DNA from: Schizochytrium sp. TIO01
Lineage: Eukaryota; Sar; Bigyra; Thraustochytrida; Thraustochytriidae
Length of the DNA: 64,000 nucleotides
Reading direction: 5' to 3'
Assembly: GCA_004764695.1 (NCBI GenBank)
Contig: SMSO01000025.1
Location: 2,687,102 to 2,751,101, forward strand
Under the pieces are notes generated by a model. The model was not told the DNA's origin. It worked only from the letters and a program-made list of their open reading frames with translations, and made no database searches. Position 1 is the first letter of the stretch; each line of letters begins with the position of its first letter. Shown here in pieces: positions 3,552 to 63,438 of this stretch. A program made the position numbers and the translations under genes.

Positions 3552-4396
3552 ACGTAGTAAATAATTTCACATTTCTTTTATTTGAAAGAGAAGTACTATT
3601 ACACTTCACTATATTTAGCAGCAGTACATCTCCGGAAATAATATCATTGCTGCTGCTTCGCGACAATATTTTCGAAAGTCTGGTGCAAGTCTTTGACACA
3701 ACTTTCTCTTTAGCCTAAGTAAATTCAGTTGCAGACGGAAGCTTGCTGGCTAGACCCTGGTCACAACATAATAACAGATCCAAAAGCTAAGATTGAAATA
3801 GTTCATCACATCAGAACATCTTGAAAGTTTTGAAATTTTCATTTATGTGTAGATTCTATGTGAAAAGGTTAAAAATGAAAGCTTATGCTTGTATGTGTGT
3901 GTTGTTTGCGTGTTTGCCAGCTCATGTGAGCAGGGCGTCTGTTCATGCTATAATACGCCCGAGCCATTGCCCATGACTCGAGCCATTCTCCCCCTTCTTT
4001 TGGCCAAGGGCCAAAACGAAACGAATGAGTGAGTGATAAGTGAGTAAGTGAATAGATGAGCAAGGGTATGAAAATTGTGTTTTGCAATGATGGCGAAGGT
4101 ATTATAACAACACCATAATCATTAGCAACATGTGAAAACAGGATCAATACATACCATGCCACTAGACCACCACTAAGAAGGGTGTCAAATGATAGCCGAA
4201 TGTCTGTCTGTTGGGTATCAACTCCTACTGATCAATCCAAGGCTATTACACGAAGGAGAAAAAGAAGAAAAAGGTGAGCATAGGATACCATCGATAATAG
4301 AAAAAGAAAAAAAGCAGTGTGCAAAAAACCTCTGATCCCTAGCCACTCTCCAAAGCGTGCGCCTGTTTCAGACATCGGTATCCTTCTATTATATCT
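3552..4396. other. 3'-3' intergenic region
   Basis: AT-rich spacer between two convergent genes. It contains degenerate GTGA/GAAT short repeats around 4024-4060 and A-rich stretches near 4255-4325. The 97-codon open frame on the minus strand (3869-4162) has no recognisable feature. No gene is supported. Confidence 0.6.
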
Positions 4397-32100: not shown

Positions 32101-35100
32101 TCACTGTCATCGTTATCGCCATCTTCCTTAAGTTCATGGTCTTCTTCAGAGCTCTCTTCTTCATCTTCTGAATGGCTCACGTTGGAGGCTGATTTAGAAA
32201 GCTTCGATGAACGAGACTTGCCTGAGAGAGGTTCTTGGATTTCTACATGGTCTTCAAATGACGGCGACTCGCTATGATGACTTGTAGACTCTTCAATATC
32301 CTCACCCCCGCTGTCTTCCTTCTCGTCATTACTATCATCTTCGGTAGTAGCCTGTGTGAGAGGCTTTGAGCCAAGCTGGACACCGAATCCTTCCATGTCC
32401 GACTCAAACGAATACGGACTTGAGCTCATAGGAGAAGCCTTGTGAATCGGTTGAGATTGTGAAGCAAGACTCTCTACCTCTTCTTCTTCACTGTCATCGT
32501 TATCGCCATCTTCCTTAAGTTCATGGTCTTCTTCAGAGCTCTCTTCTTCATCTTCTGAATGGCTCACGTTGGAGGCTGATTTAGAAAGCTTCGATGAACG
32601 AGACTTGCCTGAGAGAGGTTCTTGGATTTCTACATGGTCTTCAAATGACGGCGACTCGCTATGATGACTTGTAGACTCTTCAATATCCTCACCCCCGCTG
32701 TCTTCCTTCTCGTCATTACTATCATCTTCGGTAGTAGCCTGTGTGAGAGGCTTTGAGCCAAGCTGGACACCGAATCCTTCCATGTCCGACTCAAACGAAT
32801 ACGGACTTGAGCTCATAGGAGAAGCCTTGTGAATCGGTTGAGATTGTGAAGCAAGACTCTCTACCTCTTCTTCTTCACTGTCATCGTTATCGCCATCTTC
32901 CTCAAGTTCATGGTCTTCTTCATAGCTCTCTTCTTCATCCTCTGAATGGCTCACGTTGGAGGTTGATTTAGAAAGCTTCGATGAACGAGACTTGCCTGAG
33001 AGAGGTTCTTGGATTTCTGCATGGTCTTCAAATGACGGCGATTCGCTATGATGACTAGTAGACTCTTCATTATCCTCTGCATCGTGTCTGCTCACGCTTT
33101 GATCTTCATCCTCGCTGTCATCCTTCCCATCATTGTTATCATCTTCGGTAGTAGCCTGTGTGAGAGGTTTTGAACCAAGCTGGACACCAAACCCTTCCAT
33201 GTCTGACTCAAACGAATACGGACTTGAGCTCATAGGAGATGCTTTCTGGATCAACTTACGTTGCGAAAGAAGGCTCTCCACGTCTTCCTCCTCCTCGTCG
33301 TTGTGAGCGTCATACTGCTCTTCCTCCTTCATCCGCCCATTGTCATCGATCTCTTCTTCATGTTCTGAAAGATTCAGTGGGGAAGCAATTTTAGAATGAT
33401 CCGACGAGTGGGACTTGCCTGAAAGGGGCTCGTGTAACTGCATATTATCTCTAATGACTGGCGACTCCCTATGATAATTGACAGACTCTTCAGTGTTTTC
33501 ATCCTCGTGACTAATTTCATCCTCATCTTTGCCATCACCGCTTGCAGCAATTGCTGAAACAGGAGGCTTTGAGCCAAGCTGTACACCAAATCCTTCCATG
33601 TCTGACTCAAACGAAAACTGACTTGAGTTCATGGGAGAGGCCTCATGGATCGATTGAGATTGTGAAGCAAGGCTCTCTACCTCGTCGCCATCGTTACCTC
33701 CATCTTCTGCCATATCATGGTCACAGCTCTCTTCTTCATCTTCTGAGTGGCTCACATTGGAGGCTGATTTAGAAAGCTTCGATGAACGAGACTTGCCTGA
33801 GAGAGGTTCTTGGATTTCTACATGGTCTTCAAATGGCAGCGACTCGCTATGATAACTTTCAGACTCTTCATTATCCTCTGCTTCGTGTCTGCTCACGCTT
33901 TGATCTTCATCCTCGCTGTCATCCTTCTCATCATTGTTATCATCTTCGGTAGTAGCCTGTGTGAGAGGCTTTGAACCAAGCTGGACGCCAAACCCTTCCA
34001 CGTCTGACTCAAACGAATACGGACTTGAGCTCATTGGGTTGGCTTTCGAGTGTGACTTTGACTGCGAAGCAAGGTTTTCTAGCTCTAGCTCTTCCTCTTC
34101 ATCCTCCGAATGGTTCACACTGAAGGTTGATTTAGAAAGCTTCGATGAACCAGACTTGCCTGAGAGAGGCTCTTGCGACTGCATCTTATCTCCAATGACT
34201 GGCGAATCACTACGATGACTGATAGAATCTTCACTGTTTTCATCGCCATGACTACTCTCAACCTCATCCTTGCCATCGCCACTTCCAGAGATGGCTGGGA
34301 CAGGAGGCTTTGAACCGAGTTGTACACCAAATCCTTCCGTGTCTGACTCAAACGAATACGGACTTGAGCTCATAGGAGAAGCCTTGTGTGATGACTGAGA
34401 TTGTGAAGCAAGGCTCTCTACCTCTTCTTCTTCGCCGTCATCGTTATCGCCATCTTCCTCAAGTTCATGGTCTTCTTCATAGCTTTCTTCTTCATCCTCT
34501 GAATGGTTCACATTGGAGGCTGATTTAGAAAGCTTCGATGAACGAGACTTGCCTGAGAGAGGTTCTTGGATTTCTACATGGTCTTCAAATGACAGCGACT
34601 CGCTATGATGACTTGCAGACTCTTCATTATCCTCTGCATCGTGTCTGCTCACGCTTTGATCTTCATCCTCGCTGTCATCCTTCTCATCATTGTTATCATC
34701 TTCGGTAGTAGCCTGTGTGAGAGGTTTTGAACCAAGCTGGACGCCAAACCCTTCCACGTCTGACTCAAACGAATACGGACTTGAGCTCATTGGGTTGGCT
34801 TTCGAGTGTGACTTTGACTGCGAAGCAAGGTTTTCTAGCTCTAGCTCTTCCTCTTCATCCTCCGAATGGTTCACACTGAAGGTTGATTTAGAAAGCTTCG
34901 ATGAACCAGACTTGCCTGAGAGAGGCTCTTGCGACTGCATCTTATCTCCAATGACTGGCGAATCACTACGATGACTGATAGAATCTTCACTGTTTTCATC
35001 GCCATGACTACTCTCAACCTCATCCTTGCCATCGCCACTTCCAGAGATGGCTGGGACAGGAGGCTTTGAACCGAGTTGTACACCAAATCCTTCCGTGTCT

Positions 35101-40149: not shown

Positions 40150-43100
40150 ATGATGTTGGCGTCCGCCAACGACTCTCCGGTGAAGCCATCAACATCTCCA
40201 GCATCTGAGATGTCCCCCGCGCCATCTTGGACAAATGAAGAAGATCTGCGACAGAACTCTGCATCAATTTCAGGAGGTGAGGATATGGAAACTTCGCCGA
40301 CAGCAACGGCCTACACCAACCTTGATCAAGAACTTCATGAGGCCATTCATGAGGTGGTTGAGGACAACTCCGACCAGAATCCGCACAAACAAGAACATGA
40401 TGGTGTCATGAACTCAGAGCAACTCCAAAATGCAGAGGAGAACAACATGGCGTTTACTGAACCTGGAGAAATCTCCAGTGATGTGTCAGAACCTCGTAAA
40501 ACTGAAGAACTTGTGGTAGGCCAAGAGGAGAAAGAAAACCCGCTAACTAGTGCAGAAGATGATGATTGGCTCCAGGCAGCGTGGGAAGCCATGGGGTACG
40601 ATGGTGATCCTTCAAAGACTGTGGCAGGTGAAATGGAAGGAAATGGCTTAAACACTTCAGCTCTGGAGGATGACCAAGATCTTTATGGCGATGCAAAGTA
40701 CTCGTTGCCTGATGAGGACATGATTGACGAATTCCCCTTTGATGATGTGGCAGACACCTTCATTGAGCATCGTGATATCCCATCAGTGAACAAAGATCAA
40801 TTAGGCAAGCTTATTCACGAGCTAGCATCTTCTGAGGAAAGATATGTTGACTTTCTTGATACATTGCTTCGAGTATATGTAACCCCCCTTGAGGAACTCG
40901 ACCAGGTATGGAAACGAAAGGTTCTTCAGAGACGTGAAATTGCAGCAACTTTATGTTACATCAGGCAAATTAGAATTCTCAGTGTCGAATTGTCTTCCTA
41001 TATGGCGCGGCGCATGGGACGCATCGACTCAGACTCTATGGATCAGGAGATGGCCAATATTGCACTTGCCAGAGAAGCTTGCTTGGCTGTCATCCGTTTC
41101 GCTTCACTATTCAAGCTGTATGGTCGCTATGCCGCAACTTTTTATCGTTCCACGCAAGCCTTAATTGAACTGGAGGCTCAAGATCTAGAGTTCGCTTCCT
41201 TTCTACGCTCAAGCCAAGCTGAAGCTCGAAACCAGAAATTGGATGCTCTCCTTATCATGCCAGTGCAGCGGCTGCCGCGTTTTCAGCTCTTCCTAAAACA
41301 AGTCATTGGTGCTCTTGAAGCAGAAGATGGTTTCGAAACTAATGCTCACCTTATGGAAGAAACCTCTGGAATTGCAAGTCGCGCTCTTACCTGTGTCGAG
41401 GATGCGATCCGCTACGTTGACGAATCTGTCCAGGACGAAAAGGACTATGCTGCGGTAGTCGACTTACAGGGTCGACTTGCATCTGATCAAATTGATGTCG
41501 TGTCAGGCTTTTCTGAAGGGCGCCGCCTAGTACGACAGGGAAAATTGATGAAGGCAAGTCAAGACGGCCATAAGATGGAAGCTCTTTATTTTGTCCTACT
41601 TACTGACGTTCTGTTCTATGCGGAACTTCGTCATCGTGATCACAAGCTGCGTGTTCGTCGGGAGCTCCCCAAGGGCAGTTTTACAGTAAGCGCTGCAGAG
41701 ACTGAACGCGAAGAGGATTACGGTTATGAAAGCAAGCGATTTTATATAGATTTCAATTCTAAGCGCCTCGATCTCTTTGCATCAAGCAAAGAGGACCGCG
41801 ACGCCTGGGTCGCAGCTTTGCAAACTTCTCTTGAAGCCCCAAAGACCTATGATGAGCTTTTAGAGCAGCAATCGAAGGAAAAAGAAGATGAAGAAAAGAA
41901 GTATCGCTACGATGACCACGAAAAACGTCAGGCGCGAAAGGATTCTGTTGAGCGTATTGGAGAACTAGACAAACATAATGACTTTGATATTACAGCTACA
42001 GCTGCAAAAAAGTATGAGCGAGATCTTGAGCTAGAAAGTATGATTCCGCAGAGCGAGCCTGTGCAAATGACAGCAGAGGCATATAATAATGAAGAACTTC
42101 GCAGCCATGGATCGGGTATGGAAAACCACTCGCAATATCTTGCAAATGTTGATGTAGAAATTATCGACGATGCATCGATGGTGACAGCAGCAATGGAAAT
42201 GGCAGCGAGGAACAAAGCTGCTCCACCAAATCTTTGGGATACCTCCAACGATGATATTGAACGAGCTCAAGCAACAGGGGCACGAGCGTCTATTCGGAAA
42301 GGCCCTGTTATTCTTACAGAAACCTTGATTGAGGGAGAACAAAAATATGCAGATCAGCTTGCTATCCTTTTGAAGGTTTTCGTTCAACCATTGCTTGATA
42401 TATCAGTTGGTGGCCATCTCAAGTATGACTATGATCGTGATGCAATGCGTAAAGCTCGGTCACTTCTTACCGAAACAAATGTGCAAGTTAGCCTGCATTC
42501 CCTGGTGCAACTTCAAATATTGCAAGAAGGTATCATTAATATTTTTGAAACAGAGTGGCATAATTTTGAAGAGCATATGAAGGAAGCTATACCTGGTGCC
42601 TTAGAATGGAAGCAAATTCCGACCTTTGTTCCTGAAGTGTTCGAAACCATCATCGCGTTGCTAGCACTTTACTCATCATACACGGAACGTTATGAAGCAT
42701 TCATAAAAACACTGCAACAAGAAACGATGGAAGATCTTCGCCGCTCTCTCGAAAGAAATGAAGATTGCCGAGGAAAGCCAATGCATGTGTTTCTGAGAGA
42801 CCCAACATCTCGACCGGCTTATTACGCTAAGCTCTTGAAGGATTTCGTAGCCTCTTCTGAAGAGTATGGAAGTGCAGATCTTCAAGACCGCCTGAAAGAG
42901 TGTCAGGCCGCCCTGCAAACGCTTACCACACAGGTGACCGATGCTTCTACACGTCACCATGAAACTGAAGAACTGTTGCGCGTAGAAAAATCATTAGCCC
43001 CGGCGCACAAGTCATGGTGGAGCAGGCTATTTGGAGCGTCAACTTCAACGGCCTCTAAACAGCAAACTTCAACCCAGCTTTCTACAAGCCCTGCATTTGG

Positions 43101-43863
43101 TGCTCACTTCGGCCGAAACTTGCCGCAAATCGTGAAGCCTTCACGCCGACTTTTACTTGAGGCTGACCTTATCAAAGTTTGTGCGCGTGGACCTAAACGT
43201 CGGCATTTCTGGCTCTTCAATGACCTCATTATGTACGCTGAGCAAGCAAAAGGTGGCACTTTTAAATATCGGTACTCTATTCCAACTGCAGACTGCTTTG
43301 CCGTAGCAGCAAGAGACAAATTATATATTGATGAAGCGCCGGAAGCGCATATTAATCGTGTTGGTTCGAAAGACTTATCAAATTACACGAGCTTGTTGGA
43401 TGACGAAGATGCCTCGCTCGAACAACTTGCGACTGCTCGAAGCAACAGTACTCCAAACCCATACTTTGATTTGGACGTCAGAGCACTACTTATACGCTCT
43501 ACCACCAAGTCCTTTGTTGTGATTTGCCCTTCAGTGATGGAGAAGCACCGCTGGGTTGATGCAATCAACAAGGCAGCTTCAGAGCAACTTCGTCGGCCAG
43601 TTCCAGATAAGTTTAAGTTTTATCTCCCAATTCTTTACCCCGTTACAATGTGCGAGGGTAAATGTGGTTGCTGCAAAATGAGCGTCTTATCTCTTGCAAT
43701 GGCGAAACGCGTGCCTCTGTCTGCGGATTTGCACTGCCATGTTTGTGGCTTAGCAATTTGCGGAAATTGTGCAATTCCTTATCCTGTGTTTCTGCGGAAT
43801 TCAGTAGGCCAAGTTTGTAAATCTTGCAGAGAAGAGGTGTGCCGACGAGATTTGCAGTATTAA
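40150..43863 (+). CDS. double DH-PH RhoGEF with FYVE-like zinc finger
   Basis: A 1,237-residue protein; the first ATG is at 40150 (a GTG frame extends to 40048). After an acidic disordered N-terminus, residues ~219-430 are a DH domain (IHELASSEERYVDFLDTLLR and the conserved-region-3 motif MPVQRLPRFQLFLKQVI). A PH domain follows at ~455-567 (RQGKLMKAS to DRDAWVAALQTSL). Residues ~713-937 are a second DH-like domain (LTETLIEGEQKYADQLAILL), whose CR3 is degraded to RDPTSRPAYYAKLLKDF. A second PH lies at ~995-1147 (FWLFNDLIMYAE to KHRWVDAIN). A C-terminal FYVE-like finger at ~1165-1233 has four CxxC pairs but DLHCHVCG in place of R(R/K)HHCR, so classic PI3P binding is doubtful. DH-PH proteins activate Rho-family GTPases for actin control. 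Convergent with the PhoD-like gene. Confidence 0.92.
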   Translation: MMLASANDSPVKPSTSPASEMSPAPSWTNEEDLRQNSASISGGEDMETSPTATAYTNLDQELHEAIHEVVEDNSDQNPHKQEHDGVMNSEQLQNAEENNMAFTEPGEISSDVSEPRKTEELVVGQEEKENPLTSAEDDDWLQAAWEAMGYDGDPSKTVAGEMEGNGLNTSALEDDQDLYGDAKYSLPDEDMIDEFPFDDVADTFIEHRDIPSVNKDQLGKLIHELASSEERYVDFLDTLLRVYVTPLEELDQVWKRKVLQRREIAATLCYIRQIRILSVELSSYMARRMGRIDSDSMDQEMANIALAREACLAVIRFASLFKLYGRYAATFYRSTQALIELEAQDLEFASFLRSSQAEARNQKLDALLIMPVQRLPRFQLFLKQVIGALEAEDGFETNAHLMEETSGIASRALTCVEDAIRYVDESVQDEKDYAAVVDLQGRLASDQIDVVSGFSEGRRLVRQGKLMKASQDGHKMEALYFVLLTDVLFYAELRHRDHKLRVRRELPKGSFTVSAAETEREEDYGYESKRFYIDFNSKRLDLFASSKEDRDAWVAALQTSLEAPKTYDELLEQQSKEKEDEEKKYRYDDHEKRQARKDSVERIGELDKHNDFDITATAAKKYERDLELESMIPQSEPVQMTAEAYNNEELRSHGSGMENHSQYLANVDVEIIDDASMVTAAMEMAARNKAAPPNLWDTSNDDIERAQATGARASIRKGPVILTETLIEGEQKYADQLAILLKVFVQPLLDISVGGHLKYDYDRDAMRKARSLLTETNVQVSLHSLVQLQILQEGIINIFETEWHNFEEHMKEAIPGALEWKQIPTFVPEVFETIIALLALYSSYTERYEAFIKTLQQETMEDLRRSLERNEDCRGKPMHVFLRDPTSRPAYYAKLLKDFVASSEEYGSADLQDRLKECQAALQTLTTQVTDASTRHHETEELLRVEKSLAPAHKSWWSRLFGASTSTASKQQTSTQLSTSPAFGAHFGRNLPQIVKPSRRLLLEADLIKVCARGPKRRHFWLFNDLIMYAEQAKGGTFKYRYSIPTADCFAVAARDKLYIDEAPEAHINRVGSKDLSNYTSLLDDEDASLEQLATARSNSTPNPYFDLDVRALLIRSTTKSFVVICPSVMEKHRWVDAINKAASEQLRRPVPDKFKFYLPILYPVTMCEGKCGCCKMSVLSLAMAKRVPLSADLHCHVCGLAICGNCAIPYPVFLRNSVGQVCKSCREEVCRRDLQY

Positions 43864-44041: not shown

Positions 44042-47000
44042 TTACAGACTTCCTTTATCAAAAAGAGCTTTAGACATGATCAGTACCGCCCCTGTGCTGG
44101 CTACAAAGGGTACGATCAATCCATACGGAAATGCCTTGAACGATTTCTCTTCTACATCGTAGAGACGTCGCAATACTGTGAATACCGCTGCATCGACTAG
44201 ATTTCCTCGCGCTGTACCCATGATAACCTCACTGAAACACAATTCTTGTACATCTTCAGGTGATGTTTTAAGAAAGAAATCTCGACAAAGCTTGCAAAGC
44301 TTCCTTCGAGCTACACCCACATTTTCTCGAGTATACTTTGTGAAGCTGGCTTCTAAGCTCTCTCCGGTCGCAGAGGAATCTATATCTTCGATTATCCGAT
44401 ACCATTGCATGAGCTCCTGCTCACCAAGTGGGCCATAAAACTGAACATCAAAATCAAGCCAACGGAATGGGTTCTTTTCAAAGACCCCAGTTTGTTCTGT
44501 GCTTCCATCAACTTCTTTGACTTCTTGATCGATACTTTCCCTTGGCGTTTCCCATGGCGCCTCAGGAAACCCGAGATCTGGATAGTCGCGTTTAATAGCC
44601 GCCTCTGTTGAATGAAGCCTATCCTGCTCGTCGCGGTGCTTCTTGAGTAACTTTGCCTCCTCGATGCGGTTACTTTTGGCCTTTTCTCCCCCTACGATAA
44701 CTCCCATCATCCATGATGAAATAGGGTCTTGCTGTAACAAAGGTGGAAGACGAGAAAGAAGGTTGGCTTTATCATCTGCTCCTTCATCGTCGCTATCGAC
44801 CTCATCTGCAAAGTCAACATCTTCATCACTATCATCACCATGATCATCATCGAGACCTTCACTTTGTTGTGTATCTCGTCGTGAAATACGTCTTGACTTC
44901 GGTGAATTTCGAGGAGCATTGATGGTATCCATCAGCGAGGGACTCAAATCGGTAAGAATCCCTGCGTCCAAAAGCCTAGCCTGAAAGACCGATTTTGTTC
45001 GCTTCCCTTGATAGCCAACCAGACCAACCAAGAATGCGTTGGGTTGGTTTCCAATGACTTTGTGACGATAAGCATATCGTGCTCGATCAATAGACGTAGC
45101 ATCATGGGAAAGTAGTGCAGGATCAGCAAACCCACTTGTTAGAAACGGCAACTTTCCTGCAAATGGATGTCGGGGTTGACCTGCCAGAGGACTAATGCAG
45201 TACTGTGGGACTGCAATACGCGGCTGTACCAGCTCGTGACATATAGACGTGCGAAAGCTACAACCAACTTCGGATCCACAAAGAAAACCAGCCGCGCGAC
45301 CAGATTTCTCCACCTGCCAGGCAAAAATTAAATCCAATAGACGGGTGCATTCATCGGTATGATACGCCCATGAGTACTTTACATTTGGATCGAGGCTTGA
45401 TCTTGAGTGTGCATCCAGGGGTCCATTATCGATGATCGGTTCATCTGTAACAGCCAGCAGTACTTTCACTGATACTGCATCCCGCATTACAGCAAGATCA
45501 AGCGCATCCCACACTTTAGCTGGTAGTTTGGGGCAGTCTGGCGTTTGCTCGTAAACGGGTCTGGATAATAGAGTCACTGGAGACAACAGAAGCACACCTA
45601 GACTTGCACCAAAGCAGCAAAACACTTCATCATCATGCGTAGAAAGACGTAGACCAACCTGAAAGTCTCGAGCCACATCGAGGGCAATATGGCGAACAGT
45701 TTCATACCAAGGAATAAGATCAGGATCGCATGCGAAGCTCGAGGGCGGAGCAATGTCAAGCGAAGAAATGCACATAACGTTCGAAACAGAAGAAAGCACC
45801 GTCGTAAGATCAGCAAGTGTCCATAAAAATCGATAGACGCCCCTGACAGCTTCTTCCATAGCCTCTTTTGTCTGTACTGCAATATCCGAAGGTAGTTCAT
45901 GTGGAGCTTGCGACTTTGCAATACCGCGCACTGCCCACTCAAGCTCATGTTTTGTAAACTCTAAGCTTACTTGACCTCCAAGATGGACTGCCACTACAGC
46001 CGTTGTCTGTACACTTATAATTTGACGTAAGTTACATACGTCAAGCCAAGCTGACTTTACTTGGTCTGTTAGAGAATTGCGGTAAAAGCTGAACACAGCA
46101 ATCTGATTTTCCGCACCGATCTCTATATTTTCAGGAGCTGGCATAGTATGTACATTCGCCCGGATCTCACGATCAAGTCCCTCAATTCGAATGATATAAT
46201 GCCTGTCAGGAACAAGAAGATTTTGAAATAATATTCGACAAGCCTTGCGTGCTCGTACAACGGGTACTCGAACTTCATGAATCTCCCCTGTGAGCTGATC
46301 CTGAGCTCTTGCAATGATAGAGCACGCTCCACTAGCCTCTAATAACAGAACAGCGCTGTTGTGTGTCACCTGGCCAACTACAGGCCCTAGCAACAAGCTT
46401 GGTCGCTCTTGGCTATCTGCTTCCGCACGGACAATTATTGCGGTGAGCTTTTCTGAGTGGATTCCCACCAGTCCAAAGGCAGGATCATGGACAAGATCTT
46501 GCCTTACTTCTCCATGCCGATAATCAACGCTAGTTAGGGCCTCTAACTCAAAGGCATCTCCCGGTTCATCTCTTAACACCTTCTTAAGAGTGAGTTTTCC
46601 ACTCTCTGGAGTGACAGCACCTGATGGTCTTTGGATATATGAATAACATTGGCCTGCAACAGCTGATACTGTTAACTGCATAATAGCTGATCTTGAACTT
46701 GTTTCACAAGAAATAATTGTGCGTGCTGTCTGTGCAAAGGGTCCTGGTCCACACACGAGAACTATGTCGGCTTCTGACCTCCATGAAAGTAAGATGTTCA
46801 AGAGGATTGACTGTTCCTTGACGTTTATGCACCATTCATCATAGCCATCATCCGGGTTTTCATATGTCAAACCATATGGAACAATGGGTCGATCAGTAGC
46901 CACAATAAGGTTTTTAAGATTCATATTAAATCGCAATAATGAGGTGATTTGTTGCCATTGATTTTGAGTGATAAGTGGTCCTACTGGCCAAGGTGTTGGG

Positions 47001-48295
47001 GCACCATCTGGATTAAATTGCGACGATCTTGAATCGATAAAGAGAACTGCACTATCTTCTGTAAGTTTAGCGAAAAATGTTTCTTCGTTGGAAAAACTCT
47101 CTGCATTAAGCCTGACTACATCGCATGCGTCGGATGCATCCCAAAGACTTCGTTGATATTCACGAAAAACTTGTTGTGCTAAAACAAGTAGCTTCGCGGG
47201 GTATACTTTGTCGTTCCAAGAATGTACTTTCGTGTTTCGTCTCGCAGAAGGCGGGATCTCTAGGTCTGACCAAATCATTAAGTTTGAAGCTGAAGCAAGT
47301 ACACGTCGAACGCAAGCTTGATTCCATGTGTCACGATAAACCTGACGTAACTCCTCGCATACGCAATATTCAATTCTTGCAACCTCAGTTTCGGTCAGAG
47401 GAATTTTATCGAGCCCCTTGCGGTCATTCAAGTGTTCTAGCATAAGGGCACATCGAGAAAATTTATCACGCAAGTCAACTTGTCCACCAACATGTAAAAT
47501 AAGATCAAGTGTACCCTGGTCAATGCGTTTCCAGATGGCTCCCCATAATACTTCCGCTTCTTTTGGTGTAGCTGATGTAAAAGCATTGCCAGACACTGTT
47601 GCAATTTCAAGAGGTCGATGAGTGTACATAGTACGAAAGCTACCTGTACGATGCAAAGCATCAGATCTTGTGATTCCAGAAAAAACAACATGATGTCGGA
47701 TACCAGGATCTAGGCTAGCAATATGGAAAACACTTGGTTTGCGTGCATTGAACCATTGACGAACTCGTTTCACTTCCCTACCACCAGGATTCGTCTCATC
47801 CATTATACAAACATGACACTCAAGTTCTACATCGCGATCAACCTCCAACATGACTCTAGCTGATGTTTCTGTAACCATACCAATGACGGGCCCCACAAGA
47901 ACGTTTGCAGGTCCAAATCTTGCGCAGGCACCCATCAAACGATAGTTACCTTCCTGAACTGCCTCCCCATGAGATCCTGAGCCTACGCCAGATCTTGAAA
48001 CATTAGCTGTTGCCTGAACTCTAGCAAGCTGTGCAGTGACAGCTTCTAATTCATTTCTTTGAGCTGAGTGCGCTGAGGCCACTCGTTGCTCCAGTTCTCT
48101 GAGTTCCTCAAGCACGCTGTGCACATGCTGGCCGGTATGTGCGTTGCCCATGGTCTTTCCTCTTCGCCTTCCTCCTTGCCCGCGGACTCCCTTGCCCGCT
48201 ATATTGCTCAGCAAGCGCTCTCGATATGGATTTGCAAAGTAGTCCCACGATATCAAATCAGTGAGACGCTCAGATTTGCCTTTACTCCCCGGCAT
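44042..48295 (-). CDS. tandem PhoD-like protein, probable pseudoenzyme
   Basis: 1,417 residues with two related halves. Each starts with a beta-sandwich segment (NVLVGPVIGMVTETSARVML at ~131; LLLGPVVGQVTHNSAVLLLE at ~633), followed by a PhoD-type phosphodiesterase core (~240-560 and ~740-1060). PhoD enzymes carry metal ligands in GDQ-x-Y-x-D and W-DDHE motifs; here they read HVGGQVDLRD and MIWSDLEIPP in half 1, and VHLGGQVSLEF and CISSLDIAPP in half 2, so key Asp/His residues are lost. An acidic linker (~1140-1170) and a C-terminal hydrophobic segment (YGLIVPFVASTGAVLIM) suggest membrane attachment. An internal Met49 opens with MGNAHTGQ, a good N-myristoylation motif, so the real start may be 48151. 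Function is unknown. Confidence 0.85.
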   Translation of the reverse strand: MPGSKGKSERLTDLISWDYFANPYRERLLSNIAGKGVRGQGGRRRGKTMGNAHTGQHVHSVLEELRELEQRVASAHSAQRNELEAVTAQLARVQATANVSRSGVGSGSHGEAVQEGNYRLMGACARFGPANVLVGPVIGMVTETSARVMLEVDRDVELECHVCIMDETNPGGREVKRVRQWFNARKPSVFHIASLDPGIRHHVVFSGITRSDALHRTGSFRTMYTHRPLEIATVSGNAFTSATPKEAEVLWGAIWKRIDQGTLDLILHVGGQVDLRDKFSRCALMLEHLNDRKGLDKIPLTETEVARIEYCVCEELRQVYRDTWNQACVRRVLASASNLMIWSDLEIPPSARRNTKVHSWNDKVYPAKLLVLAQQVFREYQRSLWDASDACDVVRLNAESFSNEETFFAKLTEDSAVLFIDSRSSQFNPDGAPTPWPVGPLITQNQWQQITSLLRFNMNLKNLIVATDRPIVPYGLTYENPDDGYDEWCINVKEQSILLNILLSWRSEADIVLVCGPGPFAQTARTIISCETSSRSAIMQLTVSAVAGQCYSYIQRPSGAVTPESGKLTLKKVLRDEPGDAFELEALTSVDYRHGEVRQDLVHDPAFGLVGIHSEKLTAIIVRAEADSQERPSLLLGPVVGQVTHNSAVLLLEASGACSIIARAQDQLTGEIHEVRVPVVRARKACRILFQNLLVPDRHYIIRIEGLDREIRANVHTMPAPENIEIGAENQIAVFSFYRNSLTDQVKSAWLDVCNLRQIISVQTTAVVAVHLGGQVSLEFTKHELEWAVRGIAKSQAPHELPSDIAVQTKEAMEEAVRGVYRFLWTLADLTTVLSSVSNVMCISSLDIAPPSSFACDPDLIPWYETVRHIALDVARDFQVGLRLSTHDDEVFCCFGASLGVLLLSPVTLLSRPVYEQTPDCPKLPAKVWDALDLAVMRDAVSVKVLLAVTDEPIIDNGPLDAHSRSSLDPNVKYSWAYHTDECTRLLDLIFAWQVEKSGRAAGFLCGSEVGCSFRTSICHELVQPRIAVPQYCISPLAGQPRHPFAGKLPFLTSGFADPALLSHDATSIDRARYAYRHKVIGNQPNAFLVGLVGYQGKRTKSVFQARLLDAGILTDLSPSLMDTINAPRNSPKSRRISRRDTQQSEGLDDDHGDDSDEDVDFADEVDSDDEGADDKANLLSRLPPLLQQDPISSWMMGVIVGGEKAKSNRIEEAKLLKKHRDEQDRLHSTEAAIKRDYPDLGFPEAPWETPRESIDQEVKEVDGSTEQTGVFEKNPFRWLDFDVQFYGPLGEQELMQWYRIIEDIDSSATGESLEASFTKYTRENVGVARRKLCKLCRDFFLKTSPEDVQELCFSEVIMGTARGNLVDAAVFTVLRRLYDVEEKSFKAFPYGLIVPFVASTGAVLIMSKALFDKGSL

Positions 48296-55633: not shown

Positions 55634-58600
55634 GGAAAGACTGCGCAGAACAACAACCACACACAACAGAGAAATCAACATCAACAGCAGCTTCAGGATC
55701 AGTCCAATAACACGAGCCCACAAGAAGATCGCCGTCAAGAGCCACAGCCACAACCACAGCAACAGTTGCAGCAAACTAGGTCACCCCCCCAAAACTTGCA
55801 GAGCACCGGGGCTCAGCAAGTTTTGGCGTCTTCTGTTTCACTAATCAGTAACATGGTGCGGTCAAATCAGCTTGTCTGCTCTCCAAAGAAACTCCAGCAC
55901 AGAACATCATTTGCCTCAAAACTGAAGTTGCGAAAGTCTAGCTCCCAGGAGCCAAGCTCTTCACAAGACTCGCGGCGAAAACTATCAAGTTGGCGCAATA
56001 AATCTGGCACGGCTAGTACGACAGAATCTACAGATTGCGAAGATGATGAAGTTGATTCCACCCCGCTCGAGCCTGTGAAATCTAAAAAGAAATCATTCAG
56101 CCAGAAGATCAAGCGTACAATGAGTAAAAAGTGGAACTCTAGTCGTGATCGCACAAACGACCGAGACTCGAAACATGGTTCCCATGAAAACACAGATGGC
56201 GTACAAGCCCTTACCCAAGCATCAGAGTCTATCGAAGATGCAGAAAAAAGAGGAGAGGACTCGTGGGCAGAGAAACGACGTAGTGCTGAGAGCGCTGCGA
56301 AACGCCGATCTCTACGTGATGCTATGGAGGATCTGCTTGAAAACGATAAACTTCCGAGTGAATTAGCTTTTGAGGAATCAAATGAGAGCCCCGAAGATGA
56401 TGAGGAGGAAGATGATGCGTATGATGAAGATGTACTATATGACCAGTTAAAACGCCTGTCTTGTAAAAGCCCTCGCAGCAGCAGAACTAACCAGCGTGTT
56501 GCGACCTTTAATGTTCTCGAGGCTGTAGTTTCCCACGAGGATGTTTCAATTCTCAATAATGTTCTACAATATGTCTCTGTACGGGAACATGTGAGTCTTG
56601 CACAAGTTTCCCATACCTTTTTGGAAGCTGTAACTTTAGTGCCACTGCGACTCGACTATTCAAAGCGTGTCATTGAGTACCGCCTATTAGAGCGAGTCTT
56701 TTCTACAGAACAACACTCAACACGATTATCTTCGTGGCGCGTCGCTGGTTTGTACACTGCAATCTCTGAGCTACAGACTTTGTTTCAAGTTATCGATCCC
56801 GCTGATCTTAAGTTTATTGGTCTCGTGAATCCTCGTGTGCGTTCCTTGAAACAAATGAGTGCGTGCGTTAATCTTTTGCGCTTTGAATTACACGGTTGTG
56901 AGACAGAAATTGATCTTTCACCACTTCTTTCATTGTCAAATACACTAACAGGTCTCTCGTTTTTGGCCTGCAATCACATTGAAGATCTTAAGCTCGTAGA
57001 GAATCTCCCGCATCTCCGTATGCTCTCGGTTTTCCGTAGTGCGCGCATAGATAAACTCCCAGACCTCAGCCTTTGTCCAAACATTGAATTTCTCAGTGCT
57101 GGCGAGTGTGTAGATATAGCTCATCTCAAACCCATTCGCTTCTTAAACCACCTTCAAGTACTTGACCTCTCATTCGTTCGCGCGGTCAAATCTCTTGATT
57201 TTCTCGCGAATGCAACACAACTAAAAACACTAATTCTCGACAGCTGCAAGAATCTTACAAGCCTGCAGGGGCTCGGGCATTGTGGCCGCTCGCTTGAAGT
57301 ACTCCGTCTCAACAACATTATGGGGCTTGAGTCTCTTCGGGGCATTGAATCATGTCACCAGCTTACTTCACTGGAAATCTCGTCTTTGATTCTTCTTAAA
57401 GATCTATCCCCACTCGAATCATGTGAGAAACTTGAGGATCTTCTTTTATTGAAATGTGTCCACGTCCGCTCACTGACACCATTGTGGAAATCTGCAACCT
57501 CTATGCGCCGCCTCATCATTTCCGAGTGCAGATCTCTTCGGAGCGAAGACGATGTCGAAGTCGTGGAGGCTTGTTCAAAGCTTGTAGTCTTCGAATGCGC
57601 TGGTTGCCATCCTACCTTGCTGGTTGGCCTTATGAACAGTAAGCGTCTCAATGTTTTGGCTGCTGCAGAAAACGAACTCCCGCTATTGAGCGTTTCCGAT
57701 TTTGAGCAAGTTGCTTTGCCTGAAATTATGCGCCGCTTGGCGCTCTTTGGTGACGATAAGGATGAAGTAGTTATGGCAGCTCTTCGCGTTGTGCAAGCTT
57801 GTAGCGCTAATAGTGTTATGTTGTCATTGATGATTCACGAAGGTGTTGCAGAGTGGCTTATGTCATCTCTAGTATCTGCTGAAGATGCTACACACTCCCC
57901 GTCGTATGCCATCACCTTGGAGATTTTGAGAACGCTCAGTGCACTGTTGAAGTTCCCTGACGCGGCTTCACATGTTCTTGGCATTAACGATTCTGTCGAG
58001 CAACTTGCTAAGCGCATCGTTGTTTCGTCTCGCGGCTCTCGTGACGATCTATTAGAGATGGATGCAATGCCTGGAACTACCTTCGAAGAGGAACGTTGCA
58101 CTGCTGAAGCTGCTCGCGTACTAGCGCGTGTTCTTCAGCACACATCTGGTTCTGAGCGTACAACTTTAACTGTCCGCATCATAAACGCTGGTGCACCTAT
58201 GGCAGCCGTCCAGGTCCTCTCCTGTGCGACTTCAATGGACCGGACGCGGCGCCCACTGATCCTTCTTTTGAACACTCTTCTAGATCATGGCGCTGTTGAG
58301 GACTTTGTTTGCGAGGACTTGGCTTTGAATTTGATAAACCACAATCTTGTTCCGGCTCTCCTTAGTGCTAGTGAATGCTGCTCAATTGAAACTCAGATGC
58401 TCGCTGTTGCGTTACTATCATCTGTAAGCAAGGCCGGTCGCGCAGGCTCAACCCTAGTGGAAGTACTCTGTGCACAGGAAGGTGCTTTAGGTGTCCTTGT
58501 TGCTCTTTTCAATAGTACTGAAGACAGAGAAGTATTACGTTCCATTGTGGATGTTCTTTTGGAAACTCCGCCTCACCTTTGCAAAGCAGTAGCGGGTACA

Positions 58601-61600
58601 CCAAAACTTCTTTCTGGAATGATTGCTTGTATTGATCGCGAGCTTCGTTTCCAAGAGCGTTTGCATTACAGCCCCCAAAGCGACTCTTCTCTTATGTTAT
58701 TGGTAATTAACGTACTAGGTGTGATCACTCGCGAATCTGCCGGAGCGCTTGCGTTGATTGCTGAGGAGCAGGGAATAAGAGTAAGTATTCGACATTACCC
58801 GGCTGGAGAAATAAGGAACCTCGAGATTATGACTAGCAGTCAGCTTGTGAAAGACTTGCATGTGGTAGTCCTTAACGGTCCATCCGTGACTCGGGTTGCT
58901 TGCGCGCGGGTAATTGTGAACCTTGCTCAGCACTCGGAATATTTCAAGTCTGCCTTGATCGACCTCTTCCGTCATTCCAAAGCTGTCAAAGACATCTTTA
59001 TGCTTGCTGCTCGCGGAGCTTCATCCACTACTGATACTACAGCTGGTCTAGATCTTCTTTTGCTACTACTGGAAGAACCTGGCGTTGCCGACATTGGCGC
59101 TCGGTTTAGTAATGCATTAGCACATGAGTTCTGTAAAGGTATGGTTAAACTTGCAATTGAGTCAGACGCGCACCTCGAGACGGTTGTTCACGTCATTGCT
59201 CTTTTGTTAGCCTCTACTTCTCAGCGAATGGTCTATACTGGTGTAATTGTGCCTCTAGTGACCAAGGTTCAAAAGCACAAGGTTCAGGTTCAGTCACGTA
59301 TCTCTCGCATGCTTTTTCGCAACAGACGACGATCTTCACCGAGTCGTATAAGCATGTCTTCTCAGGACTCAAGAAGCGAGCGCACCGCAGCTTTGCGGTT
59401 CTTGGTAACTCTTGTTAAACAAGAGGATAATCGCGATGTACTCTTTGCAATAGGCGATGTTCATGTCTTGGAAAATCTTGTGGCAAGCCTTGCGGATGAC
59501 GATAGAAGCTGCAGAGATCTTGCGGTGTGCTTACTTGAAGCCGCTATGCAGGTTTGCGTAAACCCCCCACCCTCCCAGCAAAAGCGATTCTCGGGCATGG
59601 AAAAAATCTTACTCCAGAGTTTTACCCGGAACCCGCATCTGCCACGATTTTCACATATTACAATTCAAGCTCTCACAGACCTGCTTGACTCCGGTAGCCC
59701 ACGTGCGCGTGTTGCTTCAGCTAGACTCCTAGCTATGGTCCTTTCTCGAAATGAGGAGCTTCGTGCTTCCGTTATGGGAAATGATTTTGAGTTAACCCAG
59801 TCAAACATCGAAGGCCCCCATGATTCTGCAAGTGATAAGGAGAGTGACGATGGTATTTCCTCTTCGAACGCGAGCACTGTAGAAGATGATGAAGATGGCG
59901 ATACGGATGGCGAGGGTTTCGGAGGTCATGATTATCATCATCATCCCCACCATCATCAACGCATCCCGAGTCGTCAACATAACGGCAGTATTGGTTCAAT
60001 CCATGATGTTGACCTACCTGCTCCACCCCCTCCTGTGGCCACTGCAGAGACATCACGCTGGAGCCAAGATTTCTCGTTGGACACAAGCTTCCTTAAAACA
60101 TTGCATTATGGACTAGAGCAAGGGATTGCTGCTGGTGGGGCCATTATTCGCCGCGAACGCAAGCTAAGCGCCTCCTCAGAAGCTGGTCCTTCCAAGGTTT
60201 CTCAGGACGATGCCGAAAATCTTCTGATTACACTGCGCAACTTTCTTCTTGATCTTTCTCTGTCAGCTGTTTCTACCCAGATGTATGCCCTTGAAAATGA
60301 CTTGGAATCAGAAGTATCGGCTGGGTGTGAGTTGTTAGCTGCATTGCTTGAAGTTGATGCTTCGCGAGTGCAGGAGTTTGTTCTGCAACCGATTGTTGCA
60401 TTGCTTAGCGGAAAAACCTCTACCTCAGAGCAAAACTCATCGGAAGAAGATCTCGGCGACAACATCACAGAAAATGTAGACATGGAAGAAGTTGTCTTCA
60501 CGGATGTAGCTGAGCAGGAGCGAGTGGTTGAAGTGATGTGGGGATTAAGTAACTTGAACACCAACGAGATCTTCGACTCTTTGGAAAGCCTTGATGCATT
60601 TTCTCATTTGGCAGAGTACATATCTTCTGATGACTCATCTAGCAGAATTCGACGCATCGGTCTTCGTGCTATTGCTAAGTATATCCGTGGTGACGTCAAG
60701 AAAATCTTGCGTCTAGACCAAGAATCTGCATTATTAAAGCGCCTTCTTGGAGAAGTTATTGCTGAGAATGTTGAGATGTACCCTGCTATTGTGGAAACAT
60801 TCAATGGTCTTCAAGTTAGGGATTTTGAGTCAAGCGAATTGGCGTCTCGCTTGCTTGACTCGGGACTTCTTGAGGCAATGCAGAAGTGGCGTGCGCAGCT
60901 TGCGGAAGGCGGATCAGAACGGGAGAGAAACAAACCAGAAATCGAGCTTGGTTGTTTTCTCTTTGTGCCTGGTATGCGTGCTGTCAGCGAAGCAAAGTAT
61001 AAAATATCTGCAGCCATGTCTAACGAGTCTTTATCTGACCTCGTTGCAGGATTGTTTAACTCTGAGGATTGTTTCGAGATCCGTGCATCATTGGGTAGAC
61101 TTCTTGCAACAATCGACAGCCAGTTCTTAGATGACACTTCGGAGCTCTTCAGGTCAACTGTGGCTCAGAGTAAGAGTTTCGATCAATTGTCCTCACGTGA
61201 AATGGCATATGAGCTTGAACAGTTGAAATATTATCCTGTTGCTTTCAACCGTGTTCGTGGATATCCAGTACCTTTTCAACAAGAGGACATTTTTCGAATT
61301 TCGGTTGAGCGATGGACCACCATGGCAATCAAATCGCATTACCCCCATACACATGTACACTTGAATCACCGGCGTGTTTACTTCGAAGTTGAATTGATTG
61401 ATACATTTGAAGCAGACACAGTGGTTGGTTGGGTTTCTGATTCCTTTAAGAGTGGTGTTATTCGAGGTTTCACTTCTGGTGGTGTTAATGAAGATGAAGA
61501 CAGTTGGGGTATCAAGCTCGGTAGCCAATTCCAGCCTAAGGATGTGGTTGGCCTTGCAGCTGATCTTGACACGGGAACTTTGACATTCACAAGGAACGGC

Positions 61601-61765
61601 AGATCTTTAGATTCTGTTATTTCTCTGCCGGCATCGGTTCAGGCCGTTTTCCCGGCGGTTACAACAAGCGGCCTTACCGCGTTTTTTAATTTTGGCTCAC
61701 GCTCTTTTCGATTTTCTGCACCTTCTCGTAATTACCACTCTGTGTTTCGTTCAGTGCATGTCTAA
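55634..61765 (+). CDS. F-box-like / LRR / armadillo / SPRY protein (main exon)
   Basis: The frame is open from a strong acceptor (TTTTTACTTTTCAG, ending 55633) to the stop; the first ATG is at 55853, giving 1,970 residues from there. The segment before that ATG encodes a Gln/Asn-rich stretch (HQQQLQDQSNN, QPQPQQQLQQ) and is probably translated. Counting from 55853: basic Ser-rich region (~1-150); acidic segment; F-box-like helix set (~233-270, LNNVLQYVSVREHVSLAQVS); leucine-rich repeats (~332-570, LKTLILDSCKNLTSLQGLG); armadillo/HEAT-type helices (~615-1315); His-rich patch YHHHPHHH (~1360); more helices; C-terminal SPRY domain (~1805-1962, YFEVELIDTF, SWGIKLGSQFQP, GTLTFTRNGRSLDSVI). An SCF-type substrate receptor or large scaffold is the best guess. 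Confidence 0.88.
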   Translation, partial: GKTAQNNNHTQQRNQHQQQLQDQSNNTSPQEDRRQEPQPQPQQQLQQTRSPPQNLQSTGAQQVLASSVSLISNMVRSNQLVCSPKKLQHRTSFASKLKLRKSSSQEPSSSQDSRRKLSSWRNKSGTASTTESTDCEDDEVDSTPLEPVKSKKKSFSQKIKRTMSKKWNSSRDRTNDRDSKHGSHENTDGVQALTQASESIEDAEKRGEDSWAEKRRSAESAAKRRSLRDAMEDLLENDKLPSELAFEESNESPEDDEEEDDAYDEDVLYDQLKRLSCKSPRSSRTNQRVATFNVLEAVVSHEDVSILNNVLQYVSVREHVSLAQVSHTFLEAVTLVPLRLDYSKRVIEYRLLERVFSTEQHSTRLSSWRVAGLYTAISELQTLFQVIDPADLKFIGLVNPRVRSLKQMSACVNLLRFELHGCETEIDLSPLLSLSNTLTGLSFLACNHIEDLKLVENLPHLRMLSVFRSARIDKLPDLSLCPNIEFLSAGECVDIAHLKPIRFLNHLQVLDLSFVRAVKSLDFLANATQLKTLILDSCKNLTSLQGLGHCGRSLEVLRLNNIMGLESLRGIESCHQLTSLEISSLILLKDLSPLESCEKLEDLLLLKCVHVRSLTPLWKSATSMRRLIISECRSLRSEDDVEVVEACSKLVVFECAGCHPTLLVGLMNSKRLNVLAAAENELPLLSVSDFEQVALPEIMRRLALFGDDKDEVVMAALRVVQACSANSVMLSLMIHEGVAEWLMSSLVSAEDATHSPSYAITLEILRTLSALLKFPDAASHVLGINDSVEQLAKRIVVSSRGSRDDLLEMDAMPGTTFEEERCTAEAARVLARVLQHTSGSERTTLTVRIINAGAPMAAVQVLSCATSMDRTRRPLILLLNTLLDHGAVEDFVCEDLALNLINHNLVPALLSASECCSIETQMLAVALLSSVSKAGRAGSTLVEVLCAQEGALGVLVALFNSTEDREVLRSIVDVLLETPPHLCKAVAGTPKLLSGMIACIDRELRFQERLHYSPQSDSSLMLLVINVLGVITRESAGALALIAEEQGIRVSIRHYPAGEIRNLEIMTSSQLVKDLHVVVLNGPSVTRVACARVIVNLAQHSEYFKSALIDLFRHSKAVKDIFMLAARGASSTTDTTAGLDLLLLLLEEPGVADIGARFSNALAHEFCKGMVKLAIESDAHLETVVHVIALLLASTSQRMVYTGVIVPLVTKVQKHKVQVQSRISRMLFRNRRRSSPSRISMSSQDSRSERTAALRFLVTLVKQEDNRDVLFAIGDVHVLENLVASLADDDRSCRDLAVCLLEAAMQVCVNPPPSQQKRFSGMEKILLQSFTRNPHLPRFSHITIQALTDLLDSGSPRARVASARLLAMVLSRNEELRASVMGNDFELTQSNIEGPHDSASDKESDDGISSSNASTVEDDEDGDTDGEGFGGHDYHHHPHHHQRIPSRQHNGSIGSIHDVDLPAPPPPVATAETSRWSQDFSLDTSFLKTLHYGLEQGIAAGGAIIRRERKLSASSEAGPSKVSQDDAENLLITLRNFLLDLSLSAVSTQMYALENDLESEVSAGCELLAALLEVDASRVQEFVLQPIVALLSGKTSTSEQNSSEEDLGDNITENVDMEEVVFTDVAEQERVVEVMWGLSNLNTNEIFDSLESLDAFSHLAEYISSDDSSSRIRRIGLRAIAKYIRGDVKKILRLDQESALLKRLLGEVIAENVEMYPAIVETFNGLQVRDFESSELASRLLDSGLLEAMQKWRAQLAEGGSERERNKPEIELGCFLFVPGMRAVSEAKYKISAAMSNESLSDLVAGLFNSEDCFEIRASLGRLLATIDSQFLDDTSELFRSTVAQSKSFDQLSSREMAYELEQLKYYPVAFNRVRGYPVPFQQEDIFRISVERWTTMAIKSHYPHTHVHLNHRRVYFEVELIDTFEADTVVGWVSDSFKSGVIRGFTSGGVNEDEDSWGIKLGSQFQPKDVVGLAADLDTGTLTFTRNGRSLDSVISLPASVQAVFPAVTTSGLTAFFNFGSRSFRFSAPSRNYHSVFRSVHV

Positions 61766-62049: not shown

Positions 62050-63438
62050 TCATCTAGGGGTTCTGATAAATAAAGCGGAATCCGGATCCCGCTGAACTTG
62101 CGTCTCAACATCAGCAATTGGCATGACTTGGCCATTCATAGCAATATATACACCTGGTTCTTGTGCAGTTGACAATGCCCCGAGCGCAGTCCCAACATTG
62201 AAAAGAGCGTCTGAATTGCGAAATTTATAAGGACGTAAGGCACCAGTGACTACAATAATTGTTTCGTCCAGGTCTGGGAAGAGGTGATCATGCAGAAACT
62301 CTGCTGTTTCAATGAGAGTATCTGTGCCATGCGTAACAATTACTCGTTTAGCATCTACACGTTGAATCTCGTTTACAATGGCCAGACGGTCTCCCTCTGA
62401 AATATCTTGGCTATCTTTCCGGCACACGCTCGCAATAGAATAAGAAAAAGACCCAACAGCGTTAATATCCCTGAGGTCTCTCATGATGCTCAATACAGCT
62501 GGCTCGCCAATTTCAAAGGCATAGCCACCTGACAGCCGAGGATAATCCTTATCAATGGTCCCTCCAGTAGTGACAAATAACACATCTATGGAACTTATTC
62601 CAGCACTCGCAAACGAGGACGCATGGCTTGTGAAAGCACTTCGTGCGCTTGAAATTGTCGTGCGCGGGGTATTCCATGCACTTTCTATTGAAGTCATTCC
62701 CATAAACGAGTTACTGCGGTTTTGGGATATGACGCTAACATCCCCACCCCCAGCTGAGGTCTTAGAACCTGCAGCATTCGATATTGATGAGCTTGCTCGA
62801 CGAGCAACAACATTCGCAAGATCAGGAGAAACTAATTGCATAAGTTCTTCAATCCCAGGAAGTCGAATTGCACGTCTACTTCTGGCAAACTCGCGCACTT
62901 CGCGAACTGCATCGCTAAGAGCAACGAAATAGTGATGATGTACCCATAGAGCGGACACCGTACCCGTGCGGACCTGTCCTGATGCACAGAATATAACAAT
63001 CTTCTCGTTTGCCTTTTCCGCAGCATTTAAAGCCTGCAAAATTTTCGCTGTTGCAAGTTTGTCTTGCAAATTTGGCACGTGTTCAATGTGCGTTTTGTGC
63101 TCCGTACTTTGCGACCGCAACAGGTCTAGTAGTGGTTCTTCGTACATTGCGAGCTCACCTTCACTCAGCAACACCAGAAATCTTTGCGCGCATACTCTAT
63201 TCAGCCATGCCTGCACCTCCTCTGTGGCGATTTTTTTCCCGCGCGAGGAAATTCCTTCAGTACCTTCTCGAGTAGAGAGAACCGTTTGAGGTCGTTTCGG
63301 GGTCCCTGGAGCTGCAGCTGCCCAAACGATCTCATCTCTTCGACTCACCGGGGCCAGGTTGAACGAGTTTGCAGGTCTTTCCTGTTTCAGCGAACCCTTC
63401 ATTGTGTTGGACTTGTCATCATCCTCCCAGGCCTCCAT
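62050..63438 (-). CDS. dual-specificity-phosphatase-like domain fused to short asparaginase domain
   Basis: 462 residues from the ATG at 63438; a TTG frame extends to 63486. Residues ~70-215 resemble a dual-specificity phosphatase: the P-loop FCASGQVRTGTV keeps the C-X5-R-T signature, with HIEHVPNLQDK before it. A Ser-rich linker follows (~215-280). Residues ~282-462 match the short (~165-residue) bacterial asparaginase-like family: VLFVTTGGTIDKDY with the nucleophile Thr, RKDSQDIS, VIVTHGTDTLIETAEFL with the Thr-Asp pair, VVTGALRPYKFRNSDALFN and GVYIAMNGQVMP. The C-terminal subdomain of full-length asparaginases is absent, as in that short family. The activity and partner of the two domains are unknown. 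The asparaginase part may be of bacterial origin (inference). Confidence 0.88.
   Translation of the reverse strand: MEAWEDDDKSNTMKGSLKQERPANSFNLAPVSRRDEIVWAAAAPGTPKRPQTVLSTREGTEGISSRGKKIATEEVQAWLNRVCAQRFLVLLSEGELAMYEEPLLDLLRSQSTEHKTHIEHVPNLQDKLATAKILQALNAAEKANEKIVIFCASGQVRTGTVSALWVHHHYFVALSDAVREVREFARSRRAIRLPGIEELMQLVSPDLANVVARRASSSISNAAGSKTSAGGGDVSVISQNRSNSFMGMTSIESAWNTPRTTISSARSAFTSHASSFASAGISSIDVLFVTTGGTIDKDYPRLSGGYAFEIGEPAVLSIMRDLRDINAVGSFSYSIASVCRKDSQDISEGDRLAIVNEIQRVDAKRVIVTHGTDTLIETAEFLHDHLFPDLDETIIVVTGALRPYKFRNSDALFNVGTALGALSTAQEPGVYIAMNGQVMPIADVETQVQRDPDSALFIRTPR

Follow-up and report, generated by a model that had tools for sequence, protein, structure and literature searches.

Short-chain asparaginases (scASNases) were described as a family in 2024, with only bacterial members in the sections of that report drawn on here, and are defined by the lack of the C-terminal asparaginase subdomain (PMC10949315). 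According to the same sections, Thr16, Tyr21, Thr87, Asp88, and Lys158 are critical in the prototype, RrA of Rhodospirillum rubrum, Lys19 is also important, and Asn26, supplied by a neighbouring protomer, completes the active site. The K158M variant has 0.0% activity, Arg not being among the variants listed there; Lys158 is only moderately conserved within the family and so does not define membership in it, and the affinity of RrA for L-Asn is millimolar (PMC10949315). Thraustochytrids are described, in the part of the source used here, as having a type I L-asparaginase of 371-382 aa that is active when purified, with one unigene per strain in four strains (PMC7641610). Among the CX5R protein tyrosine phosphatases, ShufPTP has Asp63 and Cys93 according to the sections consulted, and the D63N mutant is ~70-fold slower, working through a back-up acid (PMC12848742). 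Many novel gene fusions have been reported from oomycetes, in a paper whose main text does not contain the word 'asparaginase' (PMC2705460).

The 64,000-nucleotide stretch of Schizochytrium sp. TIO01 DNA analysed here (the window) contains a gene that joins an scASNase domain to a divergent phosphatase-like domain. A sequence-only reading had described one uninterrupted frame at 62050-63438 with a C-X5-R phosphatase-like signature and two asparaginase motifs, all of which are present, and the fusion is real as sequence. The frame begins with an ATG at 63438 and closes with a stop that ends at 62050, giving 462 codons on the minus strand, arranged as follows:

62050..63438, minus strand: complete coding frame of 462 aa with no need for an intron (ORF reading and codon scoring)
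62821..63351, minus strand: divergent CX5R PTP/DSP-like domain, residues ~30-206, borders inferred, all Pfam scores below the cut-offs
63151..63165, minus strand: SEGEL, residues 92-96, an E-loop-like segment aligned with SDDEL of frame L114
63061..63078, minus strand: VPNLQD, residues 121-126, the place of the general-acid loop in alignments
62962..62991, minus strand: P-loop FCASGQVRTG, residues 150-159, with Cys151 and Arg157 (sequence)
62590..62820, minus strand: Ser/Ala-rich linker, residues 207-283, with 21 Ser and 12 Ala among 77 residues (sequence)
62053..62589, minus strand: scASNase domain, residues 284-462 (Pfam, sequence relatives, and fold)
62542..62565, minus strand: GGTIDKDY, residues 292-299, with Thr294, Lys297, and Tyr299 (alignment to relatives)
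62317..62331, minus strand: HGTDT, residues 370-374, with Thr372 and Asp373 (alignment to relatives)
62083..62100, minus strand: QVQRDP, residues 447-452, with Arg450 at the place of RrA Lys158 (profile match to RrA)

Open runs of this length are expected ~3e-8 times in the window from its base composition, and the fusion protein has a single match in the 64-Mb genome. Codon use was scored against a reference of nine other window genes and the frame was compared with the other five: the N-terminus, the phosphatase half, and the asparaginase half score 0.17 to 0.21 bits/codon in their own frame, and the other five are negative. In the Ser-rich linker codon use is neutral (-0.10), with one antisense frame at +0.32, and no GTRAG..YAG intron candidate of 30-400 bases (strong donor type GTRAG only) starts there.

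The adjoining gene, which lies on the plus strand at 55853-61762, codes for an LRR/SPRY protein of 1970 aa, and further away there is a gene for a RhoGEF-PH protein; these neighbours indicate that the window is eukaryotic nuclear DNA. Bacterial contamination was considered and rejected, as the neighbouring genes are of eukaryotic type and the codon use of the fusion agrees with theirs. Rfam finds no RNA families in the window. Other genes of the window encode a single polypeptide in which RhoGEF and PH stretches each occur twice (40150-43863), a 2566-aa Ser- and acid-rich protein (29148-36848) containing a tandem repeat at 31759-33077 (a 387-base, 129-aa unit in 3.4 copies with 96% matches), and a 1417-aa protein (44042-48295) with only a marginal DUF7800 match, which we take to resemble two diverged copies of one PhoD-like unit. 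Contig C4 of the same genome carries, within 608161-617209 and 591651-594563, a PfaA-type omega-3 PUFA synthase that occupies two open frames, together with synthase-like frames nearby on the opposite strand; the synthase reaches 1157 bits to TIGR02813 in one frame (cut-off 1010), and another large frame lies just upstream. Such a synthase is a mark of labyrinthulomycetes (thraustochytrids), and a 372-aa asparaginase in the genome, similar to the published thraustochytrid enzymes, agrees with such a host.

The asparaginase half can be placed securely with the scASNases on the basis of sequence matches and its predicted fold. Residues 286-444 match PF00710 (E 3.4e-24), the best solved relatives by sequence are eight RrA entries (E 6.8e-26 to 1e-24, with the next at 2.6e-11), and the ranking is unchanged when a 15-sequence profile is used (RrA 6.5e-40 versus 5.2e-21 for the next). 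The NCBIfam models of class 1 asparaginases are far under their cut-offs (best 50.3 bits, cut-off 314.3), and the asparaginase C-terminal domain is absent, the chain stopping with the 284-462 domain. The sequence-only reading of a compact bacterial-type asparaginase without a C-terminal subdomain is thus borne out, and since this trait defines the scASNase family the missing subdomain is not odd in itself. For structure prediction 33 rows at 40-51% identity were chosen, and pLDDT averaged by block is 83-97 between residue 331 and the C-terminus, with the active-site loop (291-310) at only 62. The 25 best matches of the model in a fold search are all RrA chains, the first being 8uoo_B (E 3.7e-12, TM 0.84 on the target), and in this half the predicted structure agrees with the RrA crystal structures.

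Stand-alone relatives were collected by scanning prokaryotic genome contigs, from which 80 of 149 relatives were kept and 77 of the 80 gave a clean frame. These frames are 159-203 aa long from the first start codon, except that L044 has 282 and L005 runs off its contig, and they share up to ~50% identity with the fusion (55% for the partial L005). Two of the genomes, G001 and G002, encode in addition to the close relative a more distant short frame of asparaginase type (164-167 aa, 34-36% identity). Viral contigs gave no match to the asparaginase half; 30 plasmid records match the fusion protein, and among the matches listed (10) all cover the asparaginase half only. In a quick tree of 78 rows, drawn with no class 1 or eukaryotic rows, the fusion lies beside L005 among diverse prokaryotic rows at the end of a long branch (1.43). 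The proposed phylogeny against short homologues thus gives a placement, which is weakly supported. Judged against prokaryotic relatives, horizontal transfer from prokaryotes is the likely origin of the asparaginase domain.

The equivalents of the RrA residues in the fusion are Thr294 (Thr16), Lys297 (Lys19), Tyr299 (Tyr21), Thr372 (Thr87), Asp373 (Asp88), and Arg450 (Lys158), the last set by a profile match to RrA in which the second basic residue of TRKN corresponds to the Arg of QVQRD. Thr294, Lys297, Tyr299, Asp342, Ser343, and Asp373 are the identical residue in all 77 relatives, and at Thr372 there is Thr in 65 and Ser in 12. The column of Lys158 holds Arg in 63 relatives, Lys in 13, and a gap in one, with two changes between Lys and Arg needed on the tree; Arg450 does not point to decay of the fusion, since Arg is the commoner state in stand-alone relatives. 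RrA Asn26 aligns with Gly304, in a column that is Asn in 11/77 and Gly in 10/77, and two residues present in 74/77 relatives each, corresponding to Lys393 and Glu404, are replaced by Thr and Tyr in the fusion. That the catalytic columns are still constrained in a copy that has diverged so far speaks for a functional site, and the asparaginase half is probably active.

The N-terminal half appears to be a divergent CX5R PTP/DSP-like domain that is filed in no family. Pfam DSPc (PF00782) scores 22.4 bits for the whole protein and 25.2 bits for the domain, under its gathering cut-off of 33.5, and CDKN3 (up to 18.2 bits, cut-off 20.7) and PTP-SAK (up to 17.4, cut-off 27) likewise fall short. A profile of DSPs from the same genome, made from 16 of 19 DSPc hits with the query's own hit among the 19, scores 22.4 bits against this half, compared with 6.9 for the best of 500 shuffles, and hhalign gives 88%. 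ShufPTP is the best solved chain by sequence (E 6.6e-4), spanning the P-loop and the next helix. An alignment with L114, a frame from one of 392 Planctomycetota genomes, covers residues 79-197 and takes in the E-loop-, P-loop-, and Q-loop-like parts at 20.3 bits and E 9.2e-5, a modest value for a search of that many genomes. Profile support for the two domains is thus uneven, the asparaginase being clearly recognized and the phosphatase scoring above chance yet under all Pfam cut-offs. The AlphaFold model of residues 61-200 has an order of strands and helices compatible with a PTP, but with block pLDDT of 24-66, and folding this half alone brought no improvement (mean pLDDT 42.6), so that structure prediction does not confirm the phosphatase as it does the asparaginase.

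Relatives of the phosphatase half were sought in several collections. In 392 Planctomycetota genomes, 26 have a match at E <= 0.01 where ~4 are expected by chance; the five of these that were read look like ordinary PTP-type stretches, and no match stands out as a close relative. No match was found at E <= 0.001 for residues 60-225 in 296 Bacteroidetes genomes, by a search whose empty answer carries no weight, nor in viral contigs, by exact 8-residue patterns of one protein, which is insensitive. The single plasmid match has E 0.7, no PHROGs match falls below E 0.04, phages and four further genomes gave empty or weak results, and the fusion's own genome has no close copy elsewhere. The phosphatase half was not found in the 80 prokaryotic scASNase loci either, among frames of at least 40 aa and with an insensitive single-sequence search that also missed the DSPs of the fusion's own genome.

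Cys151, Arg157, and Thr158 are retained in the phosphatase half, as anticipated from the C-X5-R signature, and the C-X5-R-S/T loop lies between a predicted strand and a predicted helix in the low-confidence model. The residue before the catalytic Cys, commonly His, is Phe150. The position of the general acid depends on the alignment: the Asp of LPD in 25xa falls on Asn123 (alignment E 0.015), and the Asp of LPILD in L114 falls on Gln125, adjoining Asp126. With these features, and Arg450 at the place of RrA Lys158, the description of both active sites as intact is not borne out. Absence of the Asp would not necessarily end activity, since ShufPTP D63N still turns over; by this analogy weak phosphatase activity of the N-terminal half is possible, and phosphate binding is plausible. 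A DSP encoded elsewhere in the genome (L087, 110 bits) also has Phe instead of His before its catalytic Cys.

Prokaryotic scASNase genes have recurrent neighbours. A PALP gene like the seed is present at 15/77 loci, always downstream, on the same strand and no more than 373 bases away, with an additional upstream copy in two, and a RidA gene is present at 9/77, directly downstream on the same strand in eight. The two genes occur together at three loci (L041, L057, and L076), arranged as scASNase-RidA-PALP; L039:3004-4431 and L057:2464-4265 are example neighbourhoods. The Pfam identity of the PALP and RidA neighbours comes from one example each. Either gene starts within 150 bases downstream at 19 of the 76 loci with room for it and at none of the other 57, and the trait, scored at 20 loci with L018 added, requires 10 changes on the tree. 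The one PALP compared with NCBIfam is nearest to the beta-hydroxyaspartate dehydratase BhcB (414.5 bits, cut-off 550) and to threo-3-hydroxyaspartate ammonia-lyase (371.3, cut-off 452), reaching neither cut-off. At 13 loci (e.g. L007, L015, L024, L040, L042, and L055, at about 3500-5500) the scASNase is followed by a different gene family, whose one tested member is a subtilase (Peptidase_S8). Five plasmid neighbourhoods include one from Streptomyces with a PLP enzyme, RidA, and the asparaginase together, and one from Parasedimentitalea with an adjacent aspartate ammonia-lyase, consistent with the use of Asn itself; the remaining three have neither, and one of these has a longer protein.

From these neighbours we hypothesize that beta-hydroxyasparagine could be an scASNase substrate. 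In its full form the scheme is a long shot: scASNases would act mainly on beta-hydroxyasparagine to give beta-hydroxyaspartate, which a BhcB-type dehydratase would convert to iminosuccinate and on, with the help of RidA, to oxaloacetate, and the protist fusion would put this amidase under a phosphate-sensing PTP-fold domain, uniting metabolism and signalling in a single polypeptide. No link between hydroxyaspartate and an asparaginase operon was found in a search of the open-licence literature. A frame resembling BhcB and serine racemase (L110) is present in the genome of the fusion, at 323 bits and below the cut-off, but says little because 14/14 control genomes match the BhcB/serine-racemase family too. 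The conserved bacterial neighbours offer a testable idea of the family's real substrate, one that would explain the millimolar affinity of RrA for L-Asn.

The explanation that we favour, held tentatively and with slightly less than even confidence, is that a thraustochytrid nuclear gene encodes a tetrameric amidohydrolase with a weakened phosphatase or phosphate-binding module. The C-terminal half would keep the family tetramer and hydrolyse a small amide (L-Asn, perhaps beta-hydroxy-Asn), and the N-terminal half would act as a weak phosphatase or bind phosphate; four phosphatase-like domains on each asparaginase tetramer, attached via flexible 77-residue linkers, may then target or tune the amidase. 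Amidase activity is putative, as RrA K158M is dead and the fusion, like 63/77 relatives, has Arg at that place. Gly304 for Asn26, Thr and Tyr in place of Lys393 and Glu404, the low pLDDT of the active-site loop and of the phosphatase half, and the long, weakly placed branch also count against this explanation. A fully bifunctional enzyme, the main proposal of the sequence-only reading, in which one chain dephosphorylates one substrate and deamidates another, would account for the retention of Cys151, Arg157, and Thr158 together with the asparaginase nucleophile loop and Thr-Asp pair, and the ~70-fold slower but working D63N form of ShufPTP with its back-up acid, in the part of that report cited (PMC12848742), lends it some plausibility. 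It is unlikely, however, given Phe for the P-loop His, Asn123 or Gln125 aligned at the general-acid place, a phosphatase half under all Pfam cut-offs, and Arg at the RrA Lys158 position, where Met is dead.

That same Arg, along with Gly for Asn26 and the presence of a separate complete asparaginase in the genome, could instead suggest that the asparaginase half has lost catalysis and serves as a ligand sensor regulating the phosphatase-like half. We consider this distinctly unlikely, as the nucleophile loop and Thr-Asp pair are conserved and Arg predominates in the stand-alone relatives. Of the two halves, moreover, it is the asparaginase that is better conserved, and for this reason we prefer an amidase to which a targeting or tuning module has been added to a phosphatase equipped with a sensor for amino acids. 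Decay of both halves, leaving a degenerating or structural relic, would fit the changes at key places in each and the long branch, but is quite improbable for a gene whose frame is open, whose codon bias is in frame in both domains, and whose core residues are conserved. The least credible explanation is that two separate genes, or an error of assembly or annotation, have been joined, with a border or intron in the linker. Its neutral codon score and the higher-scoring antisense frame are the points in favour, and the 462 uninterrupted codons in one frame, so rarely expected by chance, and the lack of a GTRAG..YAG intron candidate starting in the linker make it very improbable. The preferred reading remains an amidohydrolase with a weakened phosphatase or phosphate-binding module.

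The suggestion that no described family has this pairing holds within the open-licence listings searched, in which no description of a phosphatase-asparaginase pairing was found, including work on thraustochytrid asparaginases and labyrinthulomycete fusions, and the pairing of a phosphatase-like domain with an scASNase may be new. The only other PF00710 match in the genome is a 372-aa protein (L082), and the fusion is therefore an addition to a separate asparaginase. Both the thraustochytrid type I L-asparaginase and the fusion belong to the asparaginase superfamily and come from the same host group, but L082 fits the published description, as far as the sections cited give it, and the fusion does not (PMC7641610). 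The main asparaginase of the host is a different protein from the fusion.

The archaeal-type and DUSP23-type PTPs (ShufPTP 9e9l, 5z5a, and DUSP23) and DSPc align with the N-terminal half in the CX5R-Ser/Thr loop and the following helix, and the PTP-type stretch of L114 does so in its E-loop-like, P-loop, and Q-loop-like parts. The fusion differs from the archaeal-type and DUSP23-type PTPs and DSPc in its Pfam scores under the cut-offs, in having Phe for His, in a general-acid loop closer to the Cys, and in the attached asparaginase. RrA is the closest system to the asparaginase half by sequence and by fold; both have a single N-terminal-type domain, and the equivalents of Thr16, Lys19, Tyr21, Thr87, and Asp88 are kept. 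Unlike RrA, the fusion has a eukaryotic host, lies behind a phosphatase-like domain, has Arg at Lys158 and Gly at Asn26, contains short insertions, and reaches 462 aa owing to the added N-terminal half, compared with 160-180 aa for an RrA-type domain. The crtIBY gene of thraustochytrids is, in the sections of its description used here, also a fusion, from the same protist group, for which a bacterial origin is inferred, but it serves carotenoid synthesis and its fused parts are steps of one pathway (PMC10016063). The scASNase family and fused genes of bacterial origin in thraustochytrids were thus already known, and what may be new here is a fused eukaryotic scASNase, which would show the scASNase fold moving between domains of life and being built into a larger regulatory protein.
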